From an uncultured Lachnospiraceae bacterium (GTDB lineage Bacteria; Bacillota; Clostridia; Lachnospirales; Lachnospiraceae), in assembly GCA_947164605.1 (NCBI GenBank), contig CAMUXE010000001.1, positions 1 through 64,000 on the forward strand: a stretch of 64,000 bases of DNA. The letters are read 5' to 3'. Position 1 is the stretch's first letter, and each line of letters starts with the position of its first letter. Below the pieces are notes generated by a model. The model had not been told where the DNA came from. It worked only from the letters and a program-made list of their open reading frames with translations, and searched no databases. This document shows, piece by piece, positions 12,957 through 16,774 of the stretch. Made by a program: the position numbers and the translations under genes.

Positions 12957-12997
12957 AAAAGGCTAAGAGAAGTAATTTACTTCTCTTAGCCTTTTTT
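12957..12997. terminator. Bidirectional terminator between convergent genes
   Basis: A 15-bp perfect stem starting GGCTAAGAGAAG is bordered by A4 on the left and T6 on the right. It ends both the peptidase gene (plus) and the cohesin operon (minus). Confidence 0.92.
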
Positions 12998-13025: not shown

Positions 13026-14711
13026 TTACTTATCTGCCAGATTATCATCATCTAAAGCATCCTCAGTAAGGCTCTCATCTTTAAAATCATCAGCTAAAAT
13101 ATTATCATCAAGTTCATCAGCTTCAAAGATGTCCAAATTATCAGCTGCTTTTTCTTTAAAAATCTTTTCTGCAACCAATCTAGCCCTGACTAGCTTCTTA
13201 TGATTCCTATAAGCTAAAAATGAGGCAAATCCTGCAATTATAAAGAAAATACCAGCCAAAGCCCAAGCTGTGATAAGGGCCATATTCTTTGAAGAAGACT
13301 CCACATCTGCTTTTGTTTCACTTTTTTCAGGGGCTTTTTCCAGAGTGCCACTTGCAAAATATCTCTGAATTGTCTTGTTTTCAAGGTCATATGTAAAAAG
13401 GCCCAAATGCCCCTTCGAATCAGCTCCATAGAAGATACAGTAGTCTTTATTCTTCTCATCCATAAAGACCTTCATATTAAGGCCATCAATGTCAAGGCTC
13501 GTCTCCTTCATGCCAGAAGGCACCTGACTAGCCCCCTCAAGGGGAAGAATTATAAATCTTATATCACCATAGATGAACAATCTGTAAGGAGCAAAAAGCT
13601 CATTTTTTTCATCATATACACAAAGGCCTGCCCATTCTCCGTCACTTCTCACAAGATAGGCAAGAGCCACATTTCCATTAAAGCCTTTAACAAGAGCGAT
13701 TTCCTGTCCCTTATAAGTTCCTTTTTCTGCCGCAAAGCCGTCCGGTATATCAGGCTCAGAAATTTTTCTTGCAATCACATACTCAAGACCGTCAAGAGTA
13801 ACTCTAGCGCTGGTGAAAGTCTGCGCCGCTTCAGTTTCGTTGGCCTTAACTCCTTTATATACATGCAGAGTGTATGTCTTTGAGCTTCCGCTCTCAGCCA
13901 CAACCTTAATGCTAATTGTATTTTCGCCCATCTTTAGATTTCTATCGCTGACAGTGACACTGGCCTTGCTATCTGTAGCTATAGCTGACACTACAAGTCT
14001 GTCAACACTATCATTGACCTCAACATTGTAATCAAGCTGTTTCTCATTAAAGGCCGAAGAGAGCTGTCCAGGTGAGACTGAAAGACTCTTTAAAGTATTT
14101 ACAGTCGAGTACTCCTTACCATCAGCGCCTGTAACAGACTCTGGCTTATTGCTTTCATCCTGCGACTGGTCAGCATTCGCATTATTTTCAGTCTTATCTG
14201 CTCCCTGATTGCTGTCAGGACCTGGCTGCTGATCAGAATCCGATGAAGGCTGATTGCTATCTTCAATCGGACTAACTGTCACATAGCCGTTAGATATGCC
14301 AGCGACCTGGCTCAAAACATCATTTCCTGTAGACATCTGAACTCTTGAAATGCTGATTGAAGTTGAGCCTACGCCCACACACTCAAAATTCAAGCTGTAA
14401 GACGAAGCTCCTGTATTTACTATATTTAAACTTCCATTTCCTCCGCCAACATCGCCGCTTCCGCCCTCATAGCTGATAACAGATGGATCGTAACCTATCA
14501 AAAAGCCTCCGGCAATTATTGTGTCATCGGATGATATGGATATATTGATAGTAATTGTGCTTCCTATCTGTCCGCTTGCACTTGATACATATATGCTGAC
14601 CGGAGCTGCGCTGACTTTATTGTGCCATACACTTGTCCAGCTCAAGCTAAGAATAAGCATTGTGGCAAAAATAAAAGCTAAAAGCTTTTTGTTTTTATTC
14701 TTTTTCATCAT
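13026..14711 (-). CDS. Membrane-anchored cohesin-domain surface protein
   Basis: A 561-residue protein. Order: signal segment (about 10-35); cohesin-type domain (about 37-150, with GGFLIGYDPSVISYEGG and a closing ISNGYVTVS strand); a Ser/Asp/Gln/Pro-rich linker; a cadherin-like beta-sandwich domain (about 205-287); an unrecognised domain (about 295-460); a transmembrane helix near 480-503; then an acidic cytoplasmic tail with DDN(x)LAD repeats. Cohesins bind dockerins, and the gene directly upstream encodes a dockerin. Its start overlaps that stop as ATGA. It is therefore probably the wall-side anchor for the glucosaminidase. Cohesin assignment is by pattern, not profile search. Confidence 0.8.
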   Translation of the reverse strand: MMKKNKNKKLLAFIFATMLILSLSWTSVWHNKVSAAPVSIYVSSASGQIGSTITINISISSDDTIIAGGFLIGYDPSVISYEGGSGDVGGGNGSLNIVNTGASSYSLNFECVGVGSTSISISRVQMSTGNDVLSQVAGISNGYVTVSPIEDSNQPSSDSDQQPGPDSNQGADKTENNANADQSQDESNKPESVTGADGKEYSTVNTLKSLSVSPGQLSSAFNEKQLDYNVEVNDSVDRLVVSAIATDSKASVTVSDRNLKMGENTISIKVVAESGSSKTYTLHVYKGVKANETEAAQTFTSARVTLDGLEYVIARKISEPDIPDGFAAEKGTYKGQEIALVKGFNGNVALAYLVRSDGEWAGLCVYDEKNELFAPYRLFIYGDIRFIILPLEGASQVPSGMKETSLDIDGLNMKVFMDEKNKDYCIFYGADSKGHLGLFTYDLENKTIQRYFASGTLEKAPEKSETKADVESSSKNMALITAWALAGIFFIIAGFASFLAYRNHKKLVRARLVAEKIFKEKAADNLDIFEADELDDNILADDFKDESLTEDALDDDNLADK

Positions 14712-16774
14712 CTTTGATTAATCCTGTCAATTCCTAACAGATCCCTTCTTAGATAGATTAAGTCCATGATATCAATTCCATCAGCTCGGCTTATATCGGC
14801 AGCCTTAGCCCCATTTCCAGAAATAGCTTCGATATTTAGAAGATGTCTTCTCAGATAGATTAAATCCATAATATCCACCTCACCGTCGCCATTGATATCT
14901 CCATAGATAATTACAGTCTTTGAATCGGCAAGATTTCCAGACTCATCTAGTATTCTTACTATGTCGCCAGTTTTCATCAGGCCAGACTTCTCATTTCCAT
15001 CAGAATCAATAACTTCTATGCTTGCATTTTCTGTGCTGAAATTATTCTTAAAGTCTTCTACATCAGTTCCAACTTCAAGGCCTGAGATGTAAGATGCATC
15101 GTAATCATAATTGCTATCCCATCTAGCTTCTGATTCAGGTTCTGGATCAGGCTCGTCTGCTGGCTCTCCTTCTCTCACAATAAGAAGATTGTAGGTCCTC
15201 TCATCGCCATTTTCAGCTCTAACAGTCACACTAAAGTCGTTCTGACCATAATCAAGTCCCACATCGCCCAAGCCGTAAATATCAGCAGAAGATACATAAG
15301 CATTTGCATCTATTGATACGCTGTCCACATCAGATGCGACAATCAATTCATAATCAGAAGTGTAAGGGTCAAAGGATGGTGTAAGGTCATAGTCTGAAAC
15401 TTGAAGAGATTCAAGTATATTGCTAGGGCTTCCATCTCCAACCGGTGCCTCATATGGGCTGTCTGACATATTGTCATAAACTGGTATAGAAAAAACAAGA
15501 GGCGTAGTCTCTTTAATCTCATCTGAGTATGCCTTGGCCGCTGAGTAGGACTCACTTCTAGCTGCCAAAACATTGGTCATGTACTGATGCCAGTATGGTG
15601 AATATGACTTCACGTCAAATTTTTCATAATATATAGTATCCTGGCCACGTCTTATGTACTGAGAACCTATAGTGTAAGCTCCTCCGACAATAGACTTCAT
15701 CCTGTTATTCCAAGGTCTTAGAGTATCGTCATCATACTGGCTTGCATATCTAAGGCCATTTACTACGGCCGAGCCAGATGACGTCTTAACAGCTCCCTGA
15801 TTGTAATAATTATAATAACCTTCATAGCCATAGACATTACCAGATATGCTTGATCCGTATCCGCTGTTGCCCTGTTCCTGGATAATCCTTGATGCCAGGT
15901 GATAAGGGCTGACTCCTGAATACTGTCCCGCATAGAGGAGGGCTGAGGCATAGTTGTAGGACTCTCCATTTAGAGTCAGATTGTGGCTAGAATCCTCCAT
16001 AAAGGATCCAGCTATAACATTCTCAACTCCCTCAAGATTGTGTATATCAGGATCATAAGCCAATTCCTCAAACATAAAAATTCGAGTTTCGTCCAGGAAA
16101 TTCCTTGGGTCAAGAGCATATCTTATAAGGCCTCTTGATGCCTGAACCCAGCCACCACTATCCTGCTCATAGTAAGAATCTGTCTCTGGATTGTAAGCAT
16201 AGGAATCTGTTGACTTCCAAGAAGAGTCTGCACTGCCATATATAAGGCTTCTTCCCTGAACATCCTCATTGTCAACAACTTCCTCAAAGTCAGTTCCAAT
16301 CATATCTGCCACAAAAATCCAGTTTGGATACATTGCATGAAGCTCTCTCAAGGCTGGTCTGTAGGATTCTGGAAAATCCTGACTGTCAAGGTAGGCTTCA
16401 AAGTCCATATTCTCCTCGTATGTAAAAGTCTTCTTCAGTTTTACATAATCTGCATATATATAACCCTCTCTTGTCTGGCCATCATAGTCAAACCTGATAT
16501 GGTACCAGTCGTCCACCTTTTCGATAACATCGAATATGAAACCAGAACTCACGTGAGTTATAACATTGTCTGTGTTGGAAGTATCTGTACTTGTACGGAT
16601 TCTGAGGCCATCAACTCCGGCAATAACATAGCCCTGGCCCAAATCGTCACCATAAACTTTCTTTTGAAAATCCATATTAAAGATTAGACCAAACAGAAGA
16701 ACGCATGAGAGCATTAAAGCTATCATGCGTTTACAAGTCTTATCTACCACCGCGTGTCTGTATACTCTAATCAT
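14708..16774 (-). CDS. Secreted glucosaminidase with SH3 and dockerin domains
   Basis: Exported cell-wall hydrolase of 688 residues. Order: signal segment (about 16-36), bacterial SH3 (about 45-113, ending in GYIYADYVKLKK), long spacer, endo-beta-N-acetylglucosaminidase domain (about 255-420, catalytic Glu likely in RIIQEQGNSGYG), cadherin-like beta domain (about 465-547), and a C-terminal type I dockerin (about 615-683). The first dockerin loop, DINGDGEVDIMD, keeps the five Ca ligands. The second, DISRADGIDIMD, has Ala where Asp/Asn is usual. It overlaps the cohesin gene by 4 bases, so the two proteins are probably made together and joined outside the cell. Confidence 0.88.
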   Translation of the reverse strand: MIRVYRHAVVDKTCKRMIALMLSCVLLFGLIFNMDFQKKVYGDDLGQGYVIAGVDGLRIRTSTDTSNTDNVITHVSSGFIFDVIEKVDDWYHIRFDYDGQTREGYIYADYVKLKKTFTYEENMDFEAYLDSQDFPESYRPALRELHAMYPNWIFVADMIGTDFEEVVDNEDVQGRSLIYGSADSSWKSTDSYAYNPETDSYYEQDSGGWVQASRGLIRYALDPRNFLDETRIFMFEELAYDPDIHNLEGVENVIAGSFMEDSSHNLTLNGESYNYASALLYAGQYSGVSPYHLASRIIQEQGNSGYGSSISGNVYGYEGYYNYYNQGAVKTSSGSAVVNGLRYASQYDDDTLRPWNNRMKSIVGGAYTIGSQYIRRGQDTIYYEKFDVKSYSPYWHQYMTNVLAARSESYSAAKAYSDEIKETTPLVFSIPVYDNMSDSPYEAPVGDGSPSNILESLQVSDYDLTPSFDPYTSDYELIVASDVDSVSIDANAYVSSADIYGLGDVGLDYGQNDFSVTVRAENGDERTYNLLIVREGEPADEPDPEPESEARWDSNYDYDASYISGLEVGTDVEDFKNNFSTENASIEVIDSDGNEKSGLMKTGDIVRILDESGNLADSKTVIIYGDINGDGEVDIMDLIYLRRHLLNIEAISGNGAKAADISRADGIDIMDLIYLRRDLLGIDRINQR

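Follow-up and report, generated by a model that had tools for sequence, protein, structure and literature searches.

A conserved cohesin-dockerin gene pair in Lachnospiraceae, a probable one-to-one membrane tether for a cell-wall glucosaminidase

To our knowledge, cohesin-dockerin binding has been described almost only from cellulosomes and from a few isolated non-cellulosomal cases. Here we analyse two adjacent genes in a stretch of 64,000 nucleotides, hereafter the window, from an uncultured Lachnospiraceae bacterium (assembly GCA_947164605.1, contig CAMUXE010000001.1, positions 1 to 64,000). One gene codes for a secreted glucosaminidase that ends in a dockerin (P0002), the other for a cohesin protein with its own membrane anchor (P0001). 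From comparison of the sequences we consider it probable that the two proteins form a private cohesin-dockerin pair, i.e. a one-to-one membrane tether for a wall enzyme.

The type I cellulosome pairs of Clostridium thermocellum CipA and C. cellulolyticum (PDB 1ohz, 2vn6) have the same cohesin fold, a Pfam type I dockerin and the same dual-repeat symmetry. The present pair differs from them in several respects. Firstly, P0001 has a single cohesin and a transmembrane helix instead of a multi-cohesin scaffold, and no carbohydrate-binding module was found. Secondly, the cargo is an Atl-type glucosaminidase and not a plant-polysaccharide enzyme, even though a GH5 protein is among the other dockerin proteins of the genome. 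Thirdly, relatives of the pair often have one dockerin per genome. The cohesins of C. perfringens GH84C (PDB 2w1n/2jh2) and Archaeoglobus fulgidus (2xdh), both of which match the P0001 model, are likewise used outside cellulose degradation. Their carriers are a secreted glycosidase in one case and a different protein in the other, whereas the P0001 cohesin belongs to a membrane anchor whose gene shares an operon with that of its only cargo. The catalytic domain of P0002 is homologous to the staphylococcal Atl/AtlE and GH73-type glucosaminidases. Autolysins of the Atl/AtlE type localise via wall-binding repeats or membrane partners; we propose that P0002 is instead localised by its dockerin.

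Two further systems are close to the present one. Ruminococcus albus has one cohesin in its genome, a proposed surface anchor for dockerin enzymes (PMC4081043, PMC6118326); the Hungate1000 paper, which grouped Clostridiales by cohesin and dockerin number, also suggested this role (PMC6118326). However, R. albus has dozens of dockerins and its cohesin is part of a cohesin-dockerin adaptor, while many genomes with the present pair have a ratio of 1:1, and a transmembrane helix is part of the anchor itself. Lachnoclostridium sp. MSJ-17 has cell-associated single cohesins with C-terminal transmembrane helices, as does P0001, but these belong to a general docking set with up to 39 dockerin proteins, and no paired wall enzyme is described (PMC11557425). 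Among the results listed in searches of the open-access literature, none describes a cohesin-dockerin/glucosaminidase pair of this kind. As judged from sequence comparison, the pair is a conserved, probably one-to-one tether and would be a new form of non-cellulosomal cohesin-dockerin use.

A dockerin enzyme beside a cohesin anchor

All features of this locus are on the reverse strand. The P0002 gene (14708..16774, 688 amino acids) is followed by the P0001 gene (13026..14711, 561 amino acids), delimited as an open reading frame and by orthologue alignment. The stop codon of the first and the start codon of the second share a 4-base-pair (bp) ATGA overlap (14708..14711), in agreement with the sequence-only reading, a preliminary account of the window that had proposed two overlapping genes at this place. 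In P0002, a signal peptide and an SH3-like region precede an Atl/AtlE-type glucosaminidase, which is followed by a cadherin-like domain, an unnamed module and, at the C-terminus, a type I dockerin. P0001 starts with a signal peptide and a cohesin; a cadherin-like domain and an unnamed domain come next, and one transmembrane helix leads to an acidic tail in the cytosol.

The catalytic domain of P0002 (residues 122-436, 15467..16411) was recognised by its homology to Staphylococcus Atl and AtlE structures (phmmer E-values 4e-10 for 6fxo and 8e-7 for 4pi7; 2e-20 in the profile search). We regard it as GH73-like, of the Atl/AtlE type, both on this homology to solved members and on the conserved putative catalytic glutamate E300 (codon 15875..15877), invariant in 14 orthologues. 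The glucosaminidase proposed earlier was therefore confirmed, though the Pfam Glucosaminidase family PF01832 does not match P0002; among 11 orthologues it matches one, with an E-value of 0.008. The dockerin (residues 624-680, 14735..14905) was likewise upheld by profile search: PF00404 scores 33.2 bits against a cut-off of 22.9 and covers positions 1-57 of 57. It has two F-hand repeats, both reading DIMDLIYLRR, and its first calcium loop, DINGDGEVDIMD, is canonical.

The cohesin domain of P0001 (residues 36-150, 14262..14606) is borderline by sequence but clear by predicted fold. PF00963 matches the isolated domain partially and just above the cut-off (24.5 vs 24.1 bits), and a plain hmmscan of full-length P0001 did not detect it. 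The same profile matches 48 of 55 orthologous cohesin domains at E<=0.01. An AlphaFold2 model built from 55 sequences has a mean predicted local distance difference test score (pLDDT) of 93.5, and in a Foldseek search of the PDB all its top matches are cohesins, with template modelling (TM) scores of 0.8-0.88 and a best E-value of 6e-8; the C. cellulolyticum cohesin 1g1k reaches a query TM score of 0.88. The anchor is a transmembrane helix at residues ~475-502 (13206..13289), recognised by hydropathy and followed by basic residues, so that the C-terminus is predicted to be cytosolic. A cohesin protein with its own membrane anchor, as first read from the sequence, is thus borne out narrowly by the profile search, clearly by the model and, for the anchor, by hydropathy.

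Conservation of the pair and of the dockerin contact residues

Among GTDB species, 80 loci were found that code for an enzyme related to P0002. In 69 of them the gene of the cohesin anchor follows immediately downstream, mostly with a gap of less than 60 bp, and the gene pair is in this sense conserved; the enzyme has a detected dockerin (docked) in 44 of these loci and none (undocked) in 25. About 24 of the 25 are truly undocked, since in the draft genome of Roseburia inulinivorans DSM 16841 the dockerin is broken by an apparent frameshift (L142, 5440-7797). Docked enzymes without that downstream anchor were found at eight loci. Five of these, in R. bicirculans and relatives, have next to the enzyme a divergent gene whose cohesin-like product carries a transmembrane segment at the C-terminus; among the remaining three, one has an upstream cohesin-dockerin gene, one is at a contig end, and R. 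albus has no such neighbour. The neighbouring cohesin of R. bicirculans scores 53 bits in the whole-genome scan. A stand-alone Pfam scan of three of the five divergent proteins, R. bicirculans included, gave zero matches, so the cohesin call for the other divergent neighbours is based on sequence resemblance. At one locus an additional 460-residue dockerin gene lies between enzyme and anchor (L178, 7808-9190). In several genera clpC-like or purD-like genes occur near the anchor or the enzyme, even where the partner is absent (L089, L096, L098, L100, L101, L102).

The gene numbers were surveyed in 150 genomes of the family, one per genus. The enzyme occurs in 72, an anchor-type cohesin in 89, and both are adjacent in 55. 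At a dockerin threshold of E<=1e-4, under which degenerate modules may be missed, 34 of the 150 genomes have exactly one dockerin. In the 29 single-dockerin genomes with a listed position, this dockerin is on the enzyme in 21 and beside the anchor cohesin in 20. The sole dockerin and the sole PF00963 match are adjacent in 11 genomes (G002, G008, G016, G017, G019, G079, G080, G083, G085, G091 and G092).

Positions 10, 11, 17 and 18 are the recognition residues of R. albus dockerins (PMC4081043). In the P0002 dockerin they read IMRR in both repeats, and differ from those of the 11 other dockerins of the genome (e.g. V-QK or --KR types). Among the orthologues, the two repeats of a dockerin agree at these positions to 82%, whereas the agreement across genera is 21%; permutation over positions 10, 11, 17, 18 and 22 gave p 1e-4. 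Identical residues in the two repeats use the same codon in 56% of cases against 46% expected, and as codon identity is so near chance, the symmetry is mostly not due to recent duplication. Contact residues that are symmetric between repeats yet specific to a genus are the pattern expected for private pairs, and would fit a dockerin selected to bind a single, drifting partner in two ways. We reject chance adjacency of enzyme and anchor because of the conservation and symmetry data.

The loss of the dockerin provides another line of evidence. On a tree of 81 catalytic domains the docked and undocked states need three changes, most simply read as about three losses of the dockerin. The region before the catalytic domain has a median of 491 residues in undocked and 126 in docked enzymes, and the enlarged regions contain SH3 arrays. 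One undocked enzyme (L158) ends instead in choline-binding-like repeats, with a match under the Pfam cut-off. The replacement of the dockerin by wall-binding modules supports a role in retention. Undocked enzymes of the 25 loci with an adjacent anchor mostly end at their cadherin-like domain. An enzyme outside the tree (L084) has neither a dockerin nor a gain of wall-binding modules.

Other features of the locus and of the genome

The signal peptide of P0002 spans residues ~1-43 (16646..16774; hydrophobic segment 13-37), that of P0001 residues 1-35 (14607..14711; hydrophobic segment from residue 9). The SH3-like region of P0002 (residues 48-116, 16427..16633) matches PF06347 weakly, at 15.2 bits and under the cut-off, while orthologues pass the SH3_3 cut-off. 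Both proteins carry the same kind of cadherin-like domain, as had been noticed before: PF12733 scores 45.6 bits in P0001 (residues 207-286, 13854..14093) and 35.5 bits in P0002 (residues 455-535, 15170..15412) against a cut-off of 24.2 bits, and no further copies were found in the genome. Gene conversion between the two domains is unsupported, as their likeness is 0.33 within the same pair and 0.32 between different pairs. N-terminal to the dockerin, P0002 has an unnamed module of ~60 amino acids (residues 560-620, 14915..15097) with no Pfam match; tblastn matches within the genome extend over residues 560-688, and the module is common to several other dockerin proteins of the same genome.

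The membrane-proximal domain of P0001 (residues 300-451, 13359..13814) is predicted to be all-beta (AlphaFold2 pLDDT 94.7), is apparently composed of two repeats of ~75 amino acids, and is conserved across the anchor family. The window sequence of this domain has no Pfam match, and Foldseek gave no PDB match at E<=0.001; in VIA-align the best Z was 4.1, to single blades of TolB-like propellers and to EF-P, which gives no convincing fold. Most undocked relatives match the domain over only half its length. The acidic tail (residues 506-561, 13029..13196) has 56 residues, 19 of them D/E and 8 K/R. Downstream of P0001, a hairpin (12961..12991, dG -26.1 kcal/mol, z -7.9) followed by TTTTC is a strong intrinsic terminator that closes the gene pair. 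The Rfam search of the window gave zero matches, and the promoter scan found no signal clearly above shuffled sequence.

PF00404 detects 12 dockerins in the genome, i.e. 11 besides P0002, and a second PF00963-supported cohesin is on contig 2. With these additional dockerins and a minimum of one additional cohesin supported by Pfam, P0001 and P0002 are not the only cohesin-dockerin set here. Other dockerin proteins include GH25, transglutaminase-like, CAP, GH5, DUF4832 and LRR proteins. The GH25 lysozyme, transglutaminase-like and CAP proteins (L013, 3711-4760; L012, 4211-5449; L017, 3676-5178) are possible further wall-related cargo. Three further cohesin-like proteins, on contig 21, were recognised by reading the sequence and have no Pfam support. 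That contig holds a cluster of an LRR-dockerin protein, a cohesin-like-dockerin protein and two cohesin-like transmembrane proteins (L014, 2401-9455), which is perhaps a hub for the other dockerins of the genome. A 944-residue dockerin protein elsewhere (L018, 4578-7412) contains the repeat DDSSLETI about twelve times close to its N-terminus.

The one-to-one tether, its alternatives and its meaning

In the mechanism that we favour, P0002 would be secreted and would cut glycan strands of the cell's own peptidoglycan. P0001 is predicted to cross the membrane once, and its cohesin would receive the C-terminal dockerin of P0002. Each anchor would in this way keep a single wall enzyme on the outside of the membrane. 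The cadherin-like domains would serve as spacers and might provide a second contact. Through its unnamed domain and its acidic tail, P0001 may reach a partner in the cytosol or in the membrane. The purpose of such a tether might be the control of wall turnover or of cell separation.

The one-to-one tether of a peptidoglycan enzyme, which the sequence-only reading had put forward, finds good support from genome comparison, in the conserved gene pair, in the genomes in which it is the sole pair, in the symmetric and genus-specific dockerin contact residues and in dockerin loss in enzymes that have larger wall-binding arrays. Several points speak against it. The second calcium loop of the dockerin, DISRADGIDIMD, is degenerate, position 5 lacking the usual residue. 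The correlation between dockerin loss and SH3 enlargement comes from about three independent losses. Undocked genomes, in two to three clades, mostly have zero dockerins and still keep the cohesin anchor; as the enzyme and mostly the whole genome are without dockerins, the cohesin must do something else in these clades. A mirror-tree comparison of cohesin and dockerin, controlling for the catalytic domain, gave a weak and non-significant correlation (0.13, p 0.10). Finally, cross-binding is possible, as the genome codes for 11 dockerins besides that of P0002 and for at least one cohesin besides that of P0001. The description of the pair as self-contained thus fails by gene count in the window's own genome and holds in relatives where it is the sole pair.

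Cross-binding leads to the first alternative, in which the P0001 cohesin would be a general surface docking site for several dockerin proteins (GH25, transglutaminase-like, CAP, GH5 and LRR), as in a small cellulosome-like system. The number of dockerins and Pfam-supported cohesins, the varied cargo and the shared module before the P0002 dockerin would all agree with this. We nevertheless think it unlikely, since the contact residues of P0002 are unlike those of the other dockerins, the enzyme's dockerin is the only one in many relatives, and the other cohesins of the genome may serve the remaining dockerins.

Another explanation takes up the undocked clades: what keeps the enzyme on the anchor might chiefly be contacts outside the cohesin and the dockerin, e.g. 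between the cadherin-like domains, and the dockerin would be an accessory that strengthens the hold and is gained or lost by lineage. That the anchor adjoins the enzyme at 25 loci without a dockerin, mostly in dockerin-free genomes, is in its favour, and in the mirror-tree test the two cadherin-like domains gave the highest partial correlation between the proteins (0.40). On the other hand, these domains are hardly more alike within a pair than between pairs, and dockerin symmetry implies selected binding, so this explanation seems improbable to us.

We give equally little credence to a third explanation, that the anchor serves above all in signalling or regulation at the membrane, where it senses the enzyme or the state of the wall and contacts a cytosolic partner by its acidic tail. 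The unnamed domain is conserved, and in most docked relatives the tail is long and acidic, with a median length of 83 residues and a net charge of -21. Its end often resembles FEFIDLD, and an acidic motif like DDxFEFIDLD recurs at the C-terminus (e.g. L085, L092, L125, L153); such tails fit a cytosolic partner. However, the tail is short and neutral in most undocked relatives (median 15 amino acids), no known signalling domain is present, and sequence is poorly kept between genera. Inward signalling by the tail of P0001, which had been suggested from the sequence, is speculation, and the tail is nearly absent in most undocked relatives. That cohesin and dockerin are mere cellulosome relics which no longer bind, as the degenerate calcium loop and the dockerin losses might suggest, is very unlikely, and in its pure form we reject it because the pair is kept across many genera and the contact residues remain symmetric while varying between genera.

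Returning to the one-to-one tether, we point to a broader and more doubtful possibility. The pair may be a family-wide, ancestral minimal module for the cell's own wall, a private lock and key drifting in each lineage, in which a single peptidoglycan hydrolase is matched to a single transmembrane anchor and this anchor links cleavage of the wall to the cytosol; the larger cohesin-dockerin systems of Lachnospiraceae may have grown from it.

In a major gut family this pair is widespread and frequently the only one of its kind in a genome, and it carries a wall enzyme as cargo. It thereby offers a simple natural 1:1 system in which the drift of cohesin-dockerin specificity can be studied, as well as many new candidate orthogonal cohesin-dockerin pairs. 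One dockerin and one cohesin per genome need not indicate a decayed cellulosome, and for Lachnospiraceae the pair suggests a way to confine an autolysin to the membrane surface.

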